From the NCBI RefSeq assembly GCF_022899355.1, contig NZ_JALJCK010000004.1, positions 1 through 64,000 on the forward strand: a stretch of 64,000 bases of DNA, in the 5' to 3' direction. Position numbers and translations under genes: made by a program. The stretch comes from Shinella yambaruensis. GTDB taxonomy: Bacteria > Pseudomonadota > Alphaproteobacteria > Rhizobiales > Rhizobiaceae. Each line of letters starts with the position of its first letter. The stretch's first letter is position 1. Below, one piece after another: positions 25,143 through 57,541 of the stretch. Below the pieces are notes generated by a model. It saw only the letters and a list, made by a program, of their open reading frames with translations, did no database searches and was not told where the DNA came from.

Positions 25143-26246
25143 TCAGCGTTGCGGCATCAGGCCGGCGATGTGCTGGTCCCAGGCGACGGCGTCCCGGCTG
25201 CCGGCAAAGCGGCCGTCATAGGAAGAGACCGCGAAGCCCCGCGGCGCCGCGGCGATGCCGGCGGCCTCGGCGATGGCCTCCTCCCGCAGCACCCGGCCGC
25301 TTGCCGCCTCGAGCACGACGAAACGCCCGCCGTTCGGCGAGGTGAGGCCGACAAGACCCTCGCGCCGGTTAACCGCAATGGCGCCGACATAGTTGGCAAG
25401 GCCGATCGTGGTCTCCTCCGGCAGGGAGAGGAACGCCAGGTCCTCCCCCCTGGAGAAATGGCCGACGAGCGGCGGCAGGTCGTTGCGCGGTCCCTCGTAC
25501 TGGCAGGCGAACCAGATGCGCCCCCTGTCGTCGAGGTCGATATGGCGGGTGGAAAGCTGGCGCAGCGTCTCCGGCAGCGCATGGCGCTCGACGAGCGCGC
25601 CGGTTGCGGCGTCGATCAGGGCGAGCGAGGGTTCCATGTGGTCGAGATTGAGCTTGGTGCGGCCGAAATCCGGATGGGTCTCGATGCCGCCATTCGCGGC
25701 GATCAGCAGGCGGCCGTCGTCGCTGACGGAGAGATCGTGCGTGCCGATGCCGTAGGTCGAATATTCGCCGATGCGGCGGTAGCCGTCGCCGGCGTCATAG
25801 AGGCCGATGACGCCGCGCCCGGCGTCGAAATCGTTCTCGCTGGCATAGAGGATTTTTCCATCCGGCGAAAAGCAGCCGTGGCCGAAGAAATGCCGGTCCT
25901 CGGCGCTGGCGATCGTCACGGGCGCTGCCCCGCCGCCGCGGTCGATGATCAGCGCGAAGGTACCCGGACGGCGCGCGAAGGCGACGAGGTGGCCGGTCGC
26001 GGGCGAAAAGGCCATGCCGTGGCTGCGGGCCGGCAGCGGCGTCTTCTCTATGAGTGTGCCGTCCTCGGCCAGAACCGCGATGCCGAAGCTCCCGTCGCGC
26101 TCCATGTAGCCGGACGCGAAGACGGCGTCGGTCTGCGACAGCGCGAAGGACGGACGGGTCCCGAGCGCCGCGACCCAGGCGGCGCCCGCCATGCGCAGGA
26201 AGGCGCGGCGGTCGACAAGCGCGCTCCGGGTGCCCGCGGCCCGCAT
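25143..26246 (-). CDS. DUF1513 exported protein of the imelysin locus
   Basis: A 367-residue protein. The N-terminus has a Tat-type signal (DRRAFLRMAGAAWVAAL), so it is exported folded. The mature part is a beta-propeller-like DUF1513 domain (FGHGCFSPDGKILYASENDF, STYGIGTHDLSVSDDGRLLI). Its biochemical role is not known; in many Proteobacteria it sits with imelysins and a di-haem oxidoreductase. It starts in a TGATG overlap with the stop of the imelysin gene, so it is the last gene of a coupled four-gene operon. Confidence 0.82.
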   Translation of the reverse strand: MRAAGTRSALVDRRAFLRMAGAAWVAALGTRPSFALSQTDAVFASGYMERDGSFGIAVLAEDGTLIEKTPLPARSHGMAFSPATGHLVAFARRPGTFALIIDRGGGAAPVTIASAEDRHFFGHGCFSPDGKILYASENDFDAGRGVIGLYDAGDGYRRIGEYSTYGIGTHDLSVSDDGRLLIAANGGIETHPDFGRTKLNLDHMEPSLALIDAATGALVERHALPETLRQLSTRHIDLDDRGRIWFACQYEGPRNDLPPLVGHFSRGEDLAFLSLPEETTIGLANYVGAIAVNRREGLVGLTSPNGGRFVVLEAASGRVLREEAIAEAAGIAAAPRGFAVSSYDGRFAGSRDAVAWDQHIAGLMPQR

Positions 26247-27586
26247 CAGTCGCCGTCCGCGAAGGAGAAGCCGGCGCCGAGCCCGATCGCCCCGCCATAT
26301 TCGGTGTTGAGGCGCAGGATGAGGTCACGCGTGTTGACGAGGAGGAAGGCGATCTTCTGCTGTTCTTCCGGCGTCGAGACGGCCTTTTCGATATCGGGAT
26401 CGATGGTCGGCGCGACGCGGCGCAGGGCTTTCAGCACGAAATCGACATTGCCGGCGATGGAGACGAAGTTCGGATCGATGAGATCGGCCATGCCCGATGT
26501 GTCGAACAGCGTCTGCAGGCCTTCGATATTGGCGTTGATCGAGGTCCAGGTGTTGCCGGAACGCCAGAAGACCGCCGATTTCGGGCGTGCCGTGCCGCCG
26601 TTGCGGTAGAAGGTCTCGATGCGCTGGTCGCGCACCGCCTCCGCGCCGTGAACGAGGATGCCGAGGAGCGCGGTGATCGCCTCCTTGCCGGTGCGGAAGA
26701 CCGGGTTCTGCGGGCCGGGATGTTTCCAGTCCCGCTGCACGCCGTCGGGCGCGTCCCAGGCCGCGACGAGCTGACCGGCCGTCGTCTCGATATGGCGGGC
26801 GACGGCGGCGGCATAGCGGCAGCGGAAGCTGTCCGGCGTCGCCATCAGCGTTTCCGCGCCGGTGCCGTAGAGCGCGAATTCGAGCGCGCCAAATCCCTGG
26901 ATCGCTACGCTCTTGCCGGCCATGGCCGCGGCGTCCGTATCCGCTTCGTCGGCCTTCTGCAGCAGCGCCTGCACCTGCTTCAGGCCGGTGCTCTTGCGGT
27001 CGGGGTAGAAGAGGATGCGCTCGAAGCGGTTGTCGTCGATGACCGGGCCGATGCGCACGATCTCGATGCGCCCCCAGTCGGCAACCGCCTGCCGGAAGGC
27101 ATCGTCGACCGTCTTGCGGCCGCCCTCGGAGGGCGCCTTGCAGAAGGCGGCGGTCGTTTCGGCGAGCGTGCCGGCGGAGGCCTGGAAGCTGCGGTAGCCG
27201 GGGCGGATGACCTCGTCGACCGCGCGCGTCATGATGCCGACCACGCTCTCGTCCGTCAGCGCGGGCGGCACGGGCGCCTCGCCCTCCTGCGCCGGCGCCG
27301 GCAGGGCGGCGGCGAGCATCAGGCCGGCGGCGAGAAGCAGGGTCGGCAGTCGCCGCCCCCCCTCTGCCCTGCCGGGCATCTCCCCCTCAGGGGGGGAGAT
27401 TGGATGGAGCGCTGTCTCGCCTCTCTCTAGCGGTGCGGTTTGAGCAAGGTTCTTGCTTCTTGCCGATCTCCCCCCTTGAGGGGGAGATGCCCGGCAGGGC
27501 AGAGGGGGGTGAGCCCCCCCGAAAGCAAGGGCGATGCTTTCGAAAAGCGCGGCGAAACGACGGAAAGAGGGGCGCTGGATGGGCAT
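26246..27586 (-). CDS. Imelysin-family periplasmic protein with a repeat inserted in its N-terminus
   Basis: A 446-residue frame starting at the ATG at 27586, which overlaps the upstream stop as TGATG. From about residue 85 comes a hydrophobic signal core (LPTLLLAAGLMLAAALPAPA), then the imelysin (peptidase M75) domain. The first domain motif differs from GxHxxE and reads AIQGFGALEFALYG. Residues about 27-77 are encoded by a 155-bp palindromic element, in frame. An alternative ATG at 27379, itself inside the element, would give a normal-length signal peptide (MPGRAEGGRRLPTLLLAAG) and a 377-residue protein. Which start is used cannot be decided from sequence. Imelysins are iron-regulated surface or periplasmic proteins. 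Confidence 0.78.
   Translation of the reverse strand: MPIQRPSFRRFAALFESIALAFGGAHPPLPCRASPPQGGRSARSKNLAQTAPLERGETALHPISPPEGEMPGRAEGGRRLPTLLLAAGLMLAAALPAPAQEGEAPVPPALTDESVVGIMTRAVDEVIRPGYRSFQASAGTLAETTAAFCKAPSEGGRKTVDDAFRQAVADWGRIEIVRIGPVIDDNRFERILFYPDRKSTGLKQVQALLQKADEADTDAAAMAGKSVAIQGFGALEFALYGTGAETLMATPDSFRCRYAAAVARHIETTAGQLVAAWDAPDGVQRDWKHPGPQNPVFRTGKEAITALLGILVHGAEAVRDQRIETFYRNGGTARPKSAVFWRSGNTWTSINANIEGLQTLFDTSGMADLIDPNFVSIAGNVDFVLKALRRVAPTIDPDIEKAVSTPEEQQKIAFLLVNTRDLILRLNTEYGGAIGLGAGFSFADGD
27356..27510. repeat. 155-bp palindromic element inside a coding region
   Basis: Arms at 27357-27400 and 27465-27509 are inverted copies that differ at one or two positions. Each arm contains its own small hairpin (ATCTCCCCCTCA/GGGGGGAGAT) and the CTGCCCTGCCGGGCAT block typical of RIME-type repeats in Rhizobiaceae. 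The centre (27401-27464) is unrelated. All of it is open in the imelysin reading frame. Confidence 0.8.
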
Positions 27587-29121
27587 CAGAGGCTCTCCAA
27601 AAAAGTCAGAAGGGCGTCGCGGTCGTGTTTTTCCAGCGCGGCGAAGCGGTCGCGTGCCGTCTCAGCCTCCCCGCCGTGCCAGAGGATGGCCTCGGTGAGG
27701 TTGCGGGCGCGCCCGTCATGCAGGAAGAACGTATGGCCGTTGACGGTTTTTGTAAGGCCGATGCCCCAGAGTGGCGGCGTGCGCCATTCCCGCCCGGTCG
27801 CCACGCCGACCGCCTGCCCGTCGGCAAGGCCCTCGCCCATGTCGTGCAGCAGGAAATCGGAATAGGGCCAGATGAGCTGGAAGGCATGGGCCTTGTTGCC
27901 GGCGTCGCGCCGGGTAACGAATTTCGGCTGATGGCAGCTTGTACAGCCTGTCTCGTAGAAGATGCGCTTGCCGTTCAGCGTTTCGGCGAAACTCGCCTTG
28001 CGCCGCGCCGGCACGGCAAGGTTCTCCGCATAGAAGGTGACGAGGTCCATCACCGGCGGCGGGGCTTCGGCATCGCCGAGCCGCTTCTGCACGCCGTCCG
28101 GCCGGTCGAGGCAGGCTTTTTGCGCCGGCGTGCAGTCGCCCTGGTGCAGCGGCACGTCCGGCGTCGAAAGGCCGATGTCGAAGGCGAAGGCGTCGGCGCT
28201 CTGCTGGCGCACGGTGGCCGACTGCGCCTTCCAGCCGAACCGGCCGAGCGTCTCCTTGCCCGTCTTCGGATCGATGGCGATGGCCGCCTTGCCGCTGATG
28301 CCGTCGCCATCCTTGTCGTCGGGGTCGGCAAGGGCGAGAATATCCGCCTCGTGGATCGCCTGGACGAGGCCGAGGCCGAGCATCGGCTGGGTGACGCGCG
28401 GCGAGAGCGTCGTCGTCGCATCGAGGTCGCCATAGGCGAGATCGGCGACGGAATATGTCGGCCGGCGCAGCGTGACGACCTCGCCGCCGGCAAGCGTCAC
28501 CGGTTCCTCGGTATAGTCGATCACCATGCGGCCCTCGGCCTTGAGGCCGGGTATGGCGAGATCCTGAAGCTGGCGGCCGTAGATCGGATCCGGCAGGCTC
28601 ATCTCGCGAAAACTTTTCAGCGCCGCCTCGTCCTCCGGCGTCCTTGCCGCGCGGGCGAGGCGCAGGAACATCGACGTCGCCTCGGCGGCGCCCTCCGGCG
28701 GATGGCCGCGGCCGTCCTTGATGTGGCAGGTCTGGCAGGAGCGCGCATTGTAGAGCGGCCCGAGCCCGTCGGAGGCCTGGGTGGAGGAGGGCGAGGAGAC
28801 CCAGAGTTTCTGGAAGAGCGCATTGCCGAGCTTGAACGTCTCTTCCTCCGCGAAGGTGAGGTTCTCGGAGAAGTGGGAGAAGCTGTTGACGTTGACGGAT
28901 GCAAGTGAGGTCGCCGCCCCGCCGGACATCGCCTCATAGGCTTCGGCCTTGGAAAAATCCGTCGTTAGCGCCGTCACCGCGGCGACGCGCTTGCGATCCT
29001 TTTCGGAAAGATCATCGCGCCCGCGGCCGGTGGAATGGGCAGGTCCCAGAGCGAAAACGCCCGCCACGACGGACACCGCGGCAAGAGCCGCGAGCAGAGG
29101 GCGGGCGGGGCGTTCTGTCAT
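27586..29121 (-). CDS. Di-haem oxidoreductase (DUF1111), putative peroxidase
   Basis: A 511-residue exported c-type cytochrome. A short signal peptide precedes two haem sites: SCQTCH near residue 130 and GCTSCH near residue 395. The C-terminal LWGIGLTKTVNGHTFFLHDG is the family signature. Such di-haem proteins occur with imelysins and DUF1513 proteins and may oxidise iron or thiols in the periplasm; this is not proven. The ATG at 29121 is chosen because it directly precedes the signal peptide; a further ATG at 29169 overlaps the upstream stop region. It is coupled to the downstream imelysin gene by TGATG. Confidence 0.85.
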   Translation of the reverse strand: MTERPARPLLAALAAVSVVAGVFALGPAHSTGRGRDDLSEKDRKRVAAVTALTTDFSKAEAYEAMSGGAATSLASVNVNSFSHFSENLTFAEEETFKLGNALFQKLWVSSPSSTQASDGLGPLYNARSCQTCHIKDGRGHPPEGAAEATSMFLRLARAARTPEDEAALKSFREMSLPDPIYGRQLQDLAIPGLKAEGRMVIDYTEEPVTLAGGEVVTLRRPTYSVADLAYGDLDATTTLSPRVTQPMLGLGLVQAIHEADILALADPDDKDGDGISGKAAIAIDPKTGKETLGRFGWKAQSATVRQQSADAFAFDIGLSTPDVPLHQGDCTPAQKACLDRPDGVQKRLGDAEAPPPVMDLVTFYAENLAVPARRKASFAETLNGKRIFYETGCTSCHQPKFVTRRDAGNKAHAFQLIWPYSDFLLHDMGEGLADGQAVGVATGREWRTPPLWGIGLTKTVNGHTFFLHDGRARNLTEAILWHGGEAETARDRFAALEKHDRDALLTFLESL

Positions 29122-29165
29122 GTATGGATCGGGCCGCCCCCCGGGGGGAGGCGGCCCGCCTTCTA

Positions 29166-30443
29166 TCATTGGAAGACAGCGTTAGGATTATCCAGGCTGT
29201 CGGAGCCTTCAAGCTCGATCGTGCCGAGGTCGAGCGAGGCGATCACGCGTTCGATCGTCCTGGTCTGGTCGATCAGGCTGTCGACGGCGGCCTGGACGAC
29301 CTTGTTGCCCTCTTCGTTGCCCTCACCGATCATCTGGTCGTAGGCTTCGCCGCCTTCCGCGCGGTCCACCAGCGCCTTGAAGGCGGCGTGGCTGGCGTCG
29401 AGCTTGGCCTTCATCTCCGTGTCGAGCGCGGCGTCCTTTTCCGCGACCAGCTCGGAGAGCGACGGGCCGGCGAGCTTCGAGCCGTCCGCACGGGTATATT
29501 CGCCCGTATAGACGGTCTGGATGCCGACGACATCGTAGTAGTGCGAATTGTGCGTGTTGTCGGAGAAGCAATCGTGCTCTTCTTCCGGATCGTGCAGCAG
29601 GAGGCCGAGCTTCATGCGCTCGCCGGCAAGTTCGCCATAGGAGAGCGAGCCCATGCCGGTCAGCATGGCGGTGATGCCGGCCTTCGGATCCGACGTCACG
29701 TTCTTGGCGGCGTCGCCATCCGGCGCCCAGGCCGCCACCATCTCTTCCAGATCGGTGACGAGCAGCGAGGATGCGGCCTTCAGGTAGGCGGCGCGGCGGT
29801 CGCAATTGCCGTTGGTGCAATTGGCCGTGTCATAGTCGCTCGCCTGGCGGTTGCCCGCGCCCTTGCCGGTGCCGTTGAGATCCTGGCCCCACAGCAGGAA
29901 CTCGATGGCGTGGTAGCCGGTCGCCACGTTGGCTTCCACTTCGCCCGCCTCGTGCAGTTCCTGCAGGACGGCCGGCGTGATGGTGGTGGCGTCGATCGTC
30001 TTGCCGCCGATCTCCAGCTTCGGATTGGCGATGACATTGCCGACGAAGAGGGCGTTCTCGTCGCTCTCCGTGCCGTAGCTGGCATCGACATAGTCGATCA
30101 GGCCCTCGTCGAGCGGCCAGGCGTTGACCTTGCCTTCCCAGTCGTCGACCAGCGGATTGCCGAAGCGATAGGCTTCCGTCTGCTGGTAGGGCACGCGGGA
30201 CTTCAGCCACGCCTCGCGCGCGGCCTTCAGCGTGTCGTCGCCCGGCTTGGCGATGAGCGCGTCGACCGCTGCGTCGAGCGCTTTTGCTGCGTCGAGCGAG
30301 TCGGAGAATTTGGCATGCGCGATTTCGGCATAGTGCTTGACGATCGCGGCCGGATCGGCGGCCGCATGGGCGGAACCGATGGCGAGCCCCGATGTCGCGG
30401 CAGCAAGCGCAAAGGCGGCCGCGCGGAGGAAGGAAGTGGTCAT
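29166..30443 (-). CDS. irpA: Imelysin-family iron-regulated protein (IrpA-like)
   Basis: A 425-residue periplasmic protein. The signal peptide is MTTSFLRAAAFALAAATSGL with cleavage near AHA. The imelysin motif GYHAIEFLLWGQDLNGTGKG holds the conserved GxHxxE near residue 135. A cysteine pair CTNGNC follows. The ATG at 30443 has AGGAGA upstream. It leads the four-gene operon irpA-DUF1111-imelysin-DUF1513. A TTTAGAA-type box 162 bp upstream suggests control by the iron regulator Irr. The role in iron handling is inferred from the family. Confidence 0.88.
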   Translation of the reverse strand: MTTSFLRAAAFALAAATSGLAIGSAHAAADPAAIVKHYAEIAHAKFSDSLDAAKALDAAVDALIAKPGDDTLKAAREAWLKSRVPYQQTEAYRFGNPLVDDWEGKVNAWPLDEGLIDYVDASYGTESDENALFVGNVIANPKLEIGGKTIDATTITPAVLQELHEAGEVEANVATGYHAIEFLLWGQDLNGTGKGAGNRQASDYDTANCTNGNCDRRAAYLKAASSLLVTDLEEMVAAWAPDGDAAKNVTSDPKAGITAMLTGMGSLSYGELAGERMKLGLLLHDPEEEHDCFSDNTHNSHYYDVVGIQTVYTGEYTRADGSKLAGPSLSELVAEKDAALDTEMKAKLDASHAAFKALVDRAEGGEAYDQMIGEGNEEGNKVVQAAVDSLIDQTRTIERVIASLDLGTIELEGSDSLDNPNAVFQ

Positions 30444-43143: not shown

Positions 43144-43194
43144 GGTCGCTCATTAGTGCACCCTCACACCAAATCCGGTGAAGAGGAGCAACCC

Positions 43195-44493
43195 ATGTTC
43201 AAGCCGCTTTCCCTCGCAGGTTTCGCACTCGCGTTTTCCGCCTCGGCCTCGATGGCCGCCACCAACATCACCTGGTGGCACGGCATGGCCGGCCGCAACG
43301 GCGAGGTCATCAACGAAGTCGCCCAGAAGTTCAACGCCGCCCAGTCGGCCTGTGCCCTGACACCGGTTTCCAAGGGCACCTACGAGGAAGCGCTTGCTTC
43401 CGGCATCGCCGCCTTCCGCTCGGGCGAACAGCCGAACATCCTGCAGGTCTTCGACGCCGGCGCGGCGACGATCATCAATGCTCCGGGCGCCGTTATCCCG
43501 GCCGAAGACCTGATCACCGGCGCCGGCCACCCGTTCGACCGCGAAGCCTTCATCGAGGGCGTGCGCTACTTCTACGCCACGCCGGACGGCAAGTTCGTCG
43601 GCATGCCGTTCAACTCCTCCGCCCCGATCATGTACGTGAACACCGAGGCCCTCGAAAAGGCCGGCGTCGAAGCGCCGAAGACCTGGGAAGAGTTCGAGGC
43701 GATCGCGCCGAAGCTGAAGGAAGCCGGCTACCTGCCGCTCGTCCAGTCGCAGCTCACCTGGCAGTTCACGGAAAACTTCTTCTCGCGCAACAACATCCAG
43801 TTCGCGACGAACAACAACGGCTACGATTCGGTCACCGACACGAAGATCAACATGACGGACCCGAACCTCGTCATGATGTTCACCAAGCTGAAGGCCTGGG
43901 CCGACGAGGGCTACTTCGGCTATTTCGGTGCCGGCTGGAACGACAACCAGAAGCTCTTCGAAGATGGCAAGGCCGCCCTCTGGATTGGGTCGTCCGGTTC
44001 GTTCGGCGGCCTCCAGAAGACGGCGCAGAAGCCGTTCACCGCGGCCTTCCTGCCCTATTGGCAGGGCATTGAAGGGGCCGGCACCAACTCGTTCATCGGC
44101 GGTGCCGCGCTGTTCGCCATGTCCGGCAAGCCGGACGAAGAGAACAAGTGCACGGCCGACTTCTTCCAGTTCCTGACCTCGCCGGAAATCCAGAAGTTCT
44201 ATCACCAGGCCACCGGCTACGTCGCCATCACCAAGGCGGCCTACGAGCTGGCGAAGTCCGAAGGCTATTATGAAAAGACCCCGGTCGCCGAAGTCGGCAT
44301 CCAGCAGCTCATGCTCAAGTCGGGCGACTGGTCGAAGGGCTACCGCCTCGGCTTCTACCCGCAGATCCGCGAGATCATGGAGCGCGAATACGGCCGCATC
44401 TTCGCCGGCGAAACCTCGGTCGAAGACGCCATGAAGACGATCGAGACCGAAGCGAACGACCTGCTCGCCCGCTTCGCCAAGACCGCCGGCTGA
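43195..44493 (+). CDS. ugpB: sn-Glycerol-3-phosphate-binding periplasmic protein
   Basis: A 432-residue MalE-type binding protein with signal peptide (cleavage near SMA). It keeps UgpB segments such as KGTYEEALASGIAAFRSG, MPFNSSAPIMYVN, ATGYVAITKAAYELA and KGYRLGFYPQIR. It delivers glycerol-3-phosphate (and possibly glycerophosphodiesters) to the UgpAEC pump. The ATG at 43195 has AGAGGAG upstream. Pho-box-like repeats precede it. Confidence 0.9.
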   Translation: MFKPLSLAGFALAFSASASMAATNITWWHGMAGRNGEVINEVAQKFNAAQSACALTPVSKGTYEEALASGIAAFRSGEQPNILQVFDAGAATIINAPGAVIPAEDLITGAGHPFDREAFIEGVRYFYATPDGKFVGMPFNSSAPIMYVNTEALEKAGVEAPKTWEEFEAIAPKLKEAGYLPLVQSQLTWQFTENFFSRNNIQFATNNNGYDSVTDTKINMTDPNLVMMFTKLKAWADEGYFGYFGAGWNDNQKLFEDGKAALWIGSSGSFGGLQKTAQKPFTAAFLPYWQGIEGAGTNSFIGGAALFAMSGKPDEENKCTADFFQFLTSPEIQKFYHQATGYVAITKAAYELAKSEGYYEKTPVAEVGIQQLMLKSGDWSKGYRLGFYPQIREIMEREYGRIFAGETSVEDAMKTIETEANDLLARFAKTAG

Positions 44494-44498
44494 CAGGG

Positions 44499-44636
44499 TA
44501 GGAATCCCCCTCACCCCGTCTCTGCTTCGCTCGGCGACCCTCTCCCCAAGGGGAGAGGGGGACCGCAGACGCTGCAACATCTCCCCTTCTCCCCGCCGGG
44601 GAGAAGGTGGCCGGCAGGCCGGATGAGGGGGTGTCC
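44499..44636. repeat. RIME1-like mosaic repeat inside the ugp operon
   Basis: The whole ugpB-ugpA gap is filled by hairpin modules: CCTCTCCCC/GGGGAGAGG near 44540 and CCTTCTCCCC/GGGGAGAAGG near 44590, and a closing CCGGCAGGCCGG. It resembles the repeat at 1-112. In an operon such hairpins could stabilise the upstream ugpB message. Confidence 0.7.
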
Positions 44637-44654
44637 GCCATCGAAGGATCGCCC

Positions 44655-45536
44655 ATGAAGCGCGTGCAATTCTCCTCGCCCTATCTGCCCTATCTCTTCC
44701 TCGCGCCGCAGATGGCGATCATCTTCGTGTTCTTCTACTGGCCGTCCGTCCAGGCGATCCAGTCGTCCTTCTATCTCGAGGATCCCTTCGGCTTCGGCTC
44801 CACCTTCGTCGGCCTGTCGAACTATTCGGATGCGCTCGGCTCCGTGCAGTACCAGTCGATCGCCCGCTTCACCGTGGTCTTCACCGCGCTCGTCACCTTC
44901 CTCTCGCTCGGCATCGGCATGCTGCTCGCCGTCAAGGCGGATGCGGTGCTGAAGGGCAGTGCCGCCTACAAGACGCTGCTGATCTGGGTCTACGCGATCG
45001 CCCCGCCGGTCGCCGGCCTGATGGGCATGATGTTCTTCGACCAGCATATCGGCCCGCTGGTGAAGTTCGCCGCCCTCTTCGGCTGGGACATGAAGGTCGG
45101 CCTCAACTACAACGACACCGCCATCGCCATGATCATCGTGTCGGTGTGGAAGCAGATCCCCTACAATTTCATCTTCATCCTCTCGGGCCTGCAGAGCATT
45201 CCGGCCTCCGTGCGGGAAGCTGCCGCCATCGACTGCCGCTCCGGCACGCGGCGCTTCTGGACGATGACGCTGCCGCTGCTCGCGCCCACCGCCTTCTTCC
45301 TGCTCGTCATCAACATGACCTACGCCCTCTTCGACACGTTCGGCGTCATCGACGTGATGGTGAAGGACAAGGCCGCCAACAACCCGATCACCCTGGTCTA
45401 CAAGGTCTATATGGACGGCTTCCGCGGCAATGACCTCGGCGGATCCTCGGCCCAGTCGGTCATCCTGATGATCGTCGTCTTCGTGCTCACCATCTTCCAG
45501 TTCCGCTTCATCGAGCGGCGCGTGCACTACAATTGA
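44655..45536 (+). CDS. ugpA: Glycerol-3-phosphate ABC transporter permease UgpA
   Basis: A 293-residue inner-membrane permease with six helices. The coupling EAA loop is SVREAAAIDCRSGTRRFWTM near residue 200. The ATG at 44655 (AAGGAT upstream) follows the RIME repeat directly; a GTG or ATG further 5' would lie in the repeat. It pairs with UgpE. Confidence 0.9.
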   Translation: MKRVQFSSPYLPYLFLAPQMAIIFVFFYWPSVQAIQSSFYLEDPFGFGSTFVGLSNYSDALGSVQYQSIARFTVVFTALVTFLSLGIGMLLAVKADAVLKGSAAYKTLLIWVYAIAPPVAGLMGMMFFDQHIGPLVKFAALFGWDMKVGLNYNDTAIAMIIVSVWKQIPYNFIFILSGLQSIPASVREAAAIDCRSGTRRFWTMTLPLLAPTAFFLLVINMTYALFDTFGVIDVMVKDKAANNPITLVYKVYMDGFRGNDLGGSSAQSVILMIVVFVLTIFQFRFIERRVHYN

Positions 45537-57328: not shown

Positions 57329-57411
57329 ATGCATGGCGCCGGTGGCAAACGCGCCGCGACGCCACTTTCGGCGTGACAGGCGCCGCGTCATTTGCGAAAA
57401 TCCGTTCAAGA

Positions 57412-57486
57412 CAGGGGCGTCCGCCGGAAGGCGGGCTGAGAAGCACCCTTTGAACCTGAACCGGATCATGCCGGCGGAGGGAGTCG
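57412..57486 (+). promoter_or_regulatory. TPP riboswitch (THI element)
   Basis: The conserved THI-box order is clear: AGGGGCG, then CTGAGAAGCACCC, GAACCTGAACCGGATCATG and CCGGCGGAGGGAG. This is the thiamine-pyrophosphate aptamer. It ends 55 bp before the thiD ATG, with a C/G-rich stretch that can mask the AAGGAGG site, so it probably shuts off thiD translation or transcription when TPP is high. Confidence 0.93.
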
Positions 57487-57541
57487 AACGGGTGCCGCAT
57501 CGCCGCCACCCCGAGGCCGCCCCTGCCGGGAAGGAGGCGAG

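Follow-up and report, generated by a model that had tools for sequence, protein, structure and literature searches.

The DNA analysed here is a window of 64,000 nucleotides from Shinella yambaruensis. On its reverse strand, an imelysin reading frame of 446 amino acids (26246-27586) begins at an ATG, at 27586, that overlaps the TGA of a di-haem oxidoreductase gene. The frame matches Pfam Peptidase_M75 at 6.9e-51, and the neighbours of the gene are a second imelysin gene and a gene for a DUF1513 protein. Between the coupled ATG and the core of the signal peptide lies a large in-frame palindrome, whose 47-nt arms (27357-27403 and 27463-27509) are 96% complementary and 59 nt apart. The RNA of 27340-27530 has a folding energy of -135.8 kcal/mol, whereas its shuffles average -86.7 (z -10.5) and none of 200 folded as well. 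The features of the locus are listed below in the direction of the gene; signal-peptide features were judged by eye and from hydropathy, here and throughout.

27586..29169, reverse strand: di-haem oxidoreductase (DHOR) encoded upstream; its stop codon and the imelysin ATG overlap
27595..27598, reverse strand: GGAG, the probable ribosome site for initiation at the native ATG, within the last codons of the upstream gene
27584..27586, reverse strand: native imelysin ATG, over the upstream TGA
27510..27583, reverse strand: native n-region and the extra residues adjoining the element
27357..27509, reverse strand: type A palindromic element, 153 bp or 51 codons, with boundaries given by its copies; recognised by inverted repeat, fold z-score and multiple copies
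27463..27509, reverse strand: first arm in gene direction
27404..27462, reverse strand: loop, 59 nt
27357..27403, reverse strand: second arm in gene direction, with GAGG and the internal ATG
27377..27379, reverse strand: in-frame ATG inside the element (codon 70), put forward earlier as a start; predicted to be base-paired
27290..27343, reverse strand: hydrophobic core of the signal peptide and A-X-A site (APA followed by Q), by eye and hydropathy
26249..27289, reverse strand: mature imelysin (Peptidase_M75)

In gene direction the element reads HPPLPCRASPPQGGRSARSKNLAQTAPLERGETALHPISPPEGEMPGRAEGG, its first and last codons being shared with the flanks. The imelysin frame crosses it without a stop. 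The initial annotation had described a 155-bp palindrome at 27356..27510, inserted in frame between the ATG at 27586 and the signal core and adding about 50 residues. The palindrome is real and the frame is open through it; its size comes down to 153 bp at 27357-27509, which adds 51 codons. Counted to the likely cleavage site, the leader has 99 residues here versus 28-29 in all 15 insert-free orthologues of the genus, which leaves some 19 additional residues next to the element to account for. By eye, the residues ESIALAFGGAH next to the element (27510-27560) match no insert-free orthologue. The same stretch holds a small inverted repeat, CGAAAGCA/TGCTTTCG, and is perhaps a remnant of an earlier insertion.

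A search of the window at Rfam gathering thresholds gave the palindrome no Rfam identity. Its sole match was a TPP riboswitch (RF00059) at 57403-57499, which scored 60 bits (gathering score 54.3). Elsewhere at the locus, a strong G+C palindrome (29130-29158) lies just beyond position 29166, where the first imelysin gene ends; it is contained in the mechanically called start region of the di-haem oxidoreductase frame, upstream of a second in-frame ATG at 29121.

The imelysin gene was present in all 21 Shinella genomes, each time with an ATG overlapping or closely following the upstream stop codon and with GGAGAG before it. The comparison suggested in the initial annotation, with orthologous imelysins that lack the element, could be made within the genus: 15 of the 21 leaders are insert-free, have 28-29 residues and start at the same junction. 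The other six are longer (42-100 residues), and all six are in frame. Three of these carry type A (S. yambaruensis, S. granuli DSM 18401 and S. fusca). Two carry a second palindrome unrelated to type A, which we call type B: S. kummerowiae and, in opposite orientation, S. pollutisoli. The sixth, S. sumterensis, has a short insert of 13-14 residues that forms a hairpin of -15.5 kcal/mol, a raw value without shuffle control. Outside Shinella no insert was found in 10 of 10 imelysin orthologues, four of them parsed from 23 non-genus genomes with a match, plus six others.

The S. yambaruensis and S. granuli imelysins are 97% identical over core and mature part, without stops. Their loops are 96.6% identical when one is taken as the reverse complement and 55.9% as is, and by this comparison the two genes have one common insert whose loop has been inverted. 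On a tree of the mature region (24 rows, one gene), the insert label needs five changes, or four for the five palindrome carriers when the short insert of S. sumterensis is left out, and the starred branches force the same two numbers. Its clustering on the tree did not exceed that of shuffled labels, as repeated gain or loss would give. The element ATG sits at codon 70 in S. yambaruensis, S. granuli and S. fusca alike, so for these species one old gain followed by losses is possible. In the S. kummerowiae and S. fusca leaders, a stretch resembling the start of the core (LAAGL) flanks the insert on both sides, as if the target had been duplicated.

Both palindromes are widespread. A type A arm pattern matched 135 times in the 6.87-Mb S. 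yambaruensis genome and not at all in the reversed-pattern control, which corresponds to about 68 copies. From 58 loci fetched we measured 49 distinct intact copies of 117-173 bp, 24 of them exactly 153 bp. A second arm pattern, allowing up to two mismatches, found between 1 and 129 matches in each of the 21 Shinella genomes; reversed as a control, this pattern still matched once each in two genomes but nowhere in the other 19, and the lowest counts may therefore reflect chance. Type B was present in 18 of the 21 genomes, with controls at zero. When an element peptide was used in tblastn (E 0.001), 40 plasmid records were returned, from Rhizobium (17), Sinorhizobium (13), Shinella (7) and three further genera (one each). 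For the listed plasmid records from outside Shinella, the best place in each either fell where no gene is annotated or belonged to a record without annotation, the gene table being incomplete.

Type A copies are short (117-173 bp), have terminal inverted repeats with arms extending to the ends, and hold no transposase gene, as in a MITE. Among the 49 copies there was no flanking direct repeat of 2-6 nt above the level of shuffled flanks, as would be left by target-site duplication. Like the Rickettsia palindromic elements (RPE), type A is a multi-copy palindrome of roughly 100-150 bp that occurs in frame in unrelated conserved genes. Eight of the 49 measured copies are in frame within a gene or join two genes, and insert-free orthologues were found for seven of these eight sites (the pabC-like gene was left out). 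The remaining 41 were not recognised inside genes, by coding calls whose codon model was trained on this window and which short N-terminal cases can escape. Two type B-like palindromes were seen within the window itself. One, at 44506-44632, separates what by eye are a substrate-binding-type gene (43156-44493) and one of permease type; the frame at 44607-45536 begins inside it, and the ATG at 44655 (MKRVQF) is a likelier start. The other is cut by the window edge (1-110), where only part of it is present.

Signal peptides and other N-terminal leaders were hit at further loci. In a MltB-like transglycosylase gene (Pfam SLT_2), type A lies between the first residues and the core in 8 of the 21 Shinella genomes, as a 154-bp element in three and a 118-bp element in five. 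In all eight, the native ATG and the ATG of the element are a multiple of 3 nt apart. As in the imelysin gene, the S. yambaruensis and S. granuli loops are turned round relative to each other (93.3% identical as reverse complement, 58.3% as is). The signal peptide of this gene comes in two versions in the genus, a ML.WL.R. type and a ..IRK..KAS type; even close relatives such as Shinella genomes G001 and G003 differ in this respect, as though the versions had been exchanged. The leader of a NicO transporter came to light when 40 more S. fusca loci, with 34 intact copies, were scanned. That leader has type A in S. fusca and Shinella genome G008 (2 of 21) and type B in S. pollutisoli; in G012 it is longer and possibly holds a remnant, and the remaining 17 are plain. 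The native start context was identical in the six inspected closely. Within the inserts, the type A leaders of S. fusca and G008 have in-frame TTG or GTG codons, and the type B leader of S. pollutisoli has an ATG.

Elements also occur within proteins. At the first of two sites in cobN, full type A is present in 7 of 21 genomes, a decayed copy in one and a mixture with type B in one, and the other 12 have no element; gap length is divisible by 3 throughout the 21, including all nine carriers. At the second site, six genomes have full type A, two have remnants and 13 have none, and the frame is kept in 20 of 21 genomes overall and in 7 of 8 carriers, counting remnants. In ribD, four copies are full and in frame, one is out of frame (G012) and one is a remnant, with none recognised in 15 genomes (in frame: 20 of 21 overall, 5 of 6 carriers including remnants); in S. 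yambaruensis the RibD_C match is split into two stretches. Since G012 is out of frame at both the second cobN site and ribD, and both elements are homopolymer-rich, these breaks are possibly assembly errors. A glycosyltransferase gene carries type A in two of six close orthologues, and the S. yambaruensis pabC-like gene (Aminotran_4) has an in-frame copy inside it. Finally, the permease and ATPase of an ABC transporter are separate genes with overlapping stop and start in six of nine genomes. In S. yambaruensis they form one joined frame with the element, and in S. granuli and Shinella genome G010 the joined frame holds an apparent remnant.

The initial annotation had suggested that the element may donate a start codon to the imelysin gene, its ATG at 27379 opening a usable signal peptide with MPGRAEGGRR as n-region. 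If this were the main start in S. yambaruensis, it would give the compact signal peptide MPGRAEGGRRLPTLLLAAGLMLAAALPAPA, and the upstream stretch would be untranslated or only coupled. We consider this unlikely. The ATG is indeed in frame, with GAGG 5 nt upstream; it would yield a leader of compact, normal length in the S. yambaruensis, S. granuli and S. fusca imelysins, and such a leader would also arise in the MltB-like gene. Nine of ten in-gene type A sites keep the frame that holds it. Against these points, the native coupled ATG is kept in all 21 genomes, insert carriers included, and every imelysin carrier retains the frame from it. In the S. kummerowiae and S. sumterensis leaders, it is the only in-frame ATG, GTG or TTG, and so in two of the six carriers nothing else can start the frame. 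The only other in-frame starts in S. pollutisoli (TTG at codon 64, ATG at codon 75) lie inside the hydrophobic core. The element ATG is absent from type B and short-insert carriers, from both NicO type A leaders, where the element is nonetheless in frame, and from the pabC-like gene, which has ATA at the equivalent codon. Nor would internal initiation require the MltB-like distance between the two ATGs to be a multiple of 3, as it is in eight of eight carriers with two element lengths. What stands of the original interpretation is an in-frame, multi-copy rhizobial palindrome within a signal-peptide region; start donation is not supported, and with carriers that lack the element ATG and native starts that are retained, we rejected it as the main start.

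Predicted local folding pairs the GAGG and ATG of the element (unpaired 0.0), which speaks against initiation there, and pairs the native GGAG as well (0.00-0.01); the three positions of the native ATG have unpaired values of 0.99, 0.36 and 0.34. As both ribosome sites are predicted to be paired, folding favours neither start. We still prefer the native one, since a ribosome that terminates on the upstream gene would travel across its initiation site. It is possible that 27379 serves as an additional start.

We also considered the exit frame as a sign of selection for the start codon, and found a weak trend at most. The nine in-gene sites that leave the element in the frame ISPLEGEMPGRAEGG are the S. 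yambaruensis/S. granuli imelysin, the S. fusca imelysin, the MltB-like gene, the two cobN sites, ribD, the glycosyltransferase, the ABC junction and the pabC-like gene; the one that does not is NicO, in two species. In 84 readings of 42 copies taken as non-gene, a set that still included the pabC-like copy, the ISPLEGEMPGRAEGG frame was open in 58, the second in 43 and the third in 18. Among S. fusca readings with downstream coding sequence, five exit in the ISPLEGEMPGRAEGG frame and six in the second, NicO included.

Two further explanations concern the locus as a whole. The hairpin could be mainly an mRNA device, acting in attenuation, processing or stability between the coupled genes, with its translation incidental. 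It is very stable, and 41 of the 49 measured S. yambaruensis copies were not recognised in genes, as this would lead one to expect. The interiors of cobN, ribD and the glycosyltransferase gene are not regulatory positions, however, and the frame is kept there except in G012, which makes such a role improbable. It is less probable still, to the point that we give it very little weight, that the insertion disabled the gene and that the imelysin is decaying in S. yambaruensis. An unusually long leader, with an addition that varies between species, would fit such decay, but the Pfam match is full, and the 97% identity to S. granuli over core and mature part is uninterrupted by stops.

From these comparisons of sequence, type A in the imelysin gene is probably translated in frame from the native start and removed with the leader, and the ATG inside it would simply come with the sequence of the arm. 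Type A, probably a non-autonomous, MITE-like mobile palindrome, inserted in frame into the imelysin n-region at the latest in the ancestor of S. yambaruensis and S. granuli. Ribosomes ending the di-haem oxidoreductase would initiate at the overlapping native ATG and then translate the hairpin. The resulting leader, some 99 residues long, would still direct export through its hydrophobic core and A-X-A site. Signal peptidase would take off leader and insert together, and the mature imelysin would thus be unchanged. Like linkers inside other proteins, n-regions would then be places that tolerate translated palindromes. More tentatively, the n-regions of coupled or closely spaced genes for exported or membrane proteins may be preferred acceptors of translated palindromes in Shinella, with the type A start possibly a second, conditional initiation site. 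Unrelated elements would settle there repeatedly because the leader is cut off.

The best-known cases of palindromes lying in frame within proteins come from Rickettsia and Wolbachia, which are host-bound and have reduced genomes. The Rhizobium-specific intergenic mosaic elements (RIME) are named for their intergenic sites, and type A presumably resembles them, by description, in being a palindromic repeat of rhizobia. Our literature search, which lay largely outside subscription papers, found no report of such elements in genes of Shinella or other Rhizobiaceae. In the portions of PMC10969869 and PMC2229807 available to us, RPE inserts are described in frame in Rickettsia proteins, and the latter also describes an active guanylate kinase that carries one and cites a paper on Wolbachia palindromes. 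By description rather than by sequence, type A is like the RPE, which in the same portions are multi-copy palindromes of about 100-150 bp, in frame in unrelated protein genes and translated there. Unlike the RPE and the Wolbachia repeats, it resides in a genus of Rhizobiaceae, and most of its S. yambaruensis copies lie outside genes; Shinella elements repeatedly settle in signal-peptide n-regions, and the loop is inverted between S. yambaruensis and S. granuli at two loci. A Yersinia palindromic sequence with RU-2 helps form the leader of a short putative exported protein, YPO1552, in the accessible part of Delihas (2007). In Shinella, by contrast, the insertion splits the leader of a conserved protein that has retained its native start, and within the genus the same place is occupied by different elements.

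Our best reading is that the palindrome is a Rhizobiaceae counterpart of the protein-coding palindromes of Rickettsia and Wolbachia, one that appears to have settled repeatedly in signal-peptide n-regions. In-frame palindromes in Rhizobiaceae genomes of 4.7-7.0 Mb show, in the manner of a natural experiment, which parts of proteins can accommodate mobile DNA: the ribD and cobN elements are shared or reacquired across the genus, and signal peptides are hit repeatedly. The ABC permease-ATPase junction shows how an element can bring two genes into one frame. Start-site calls also become testable, since annotation could choose the element ATG. If the type A start does act as a second initiation site, its carriers would place long and short leaders on one mature protein.
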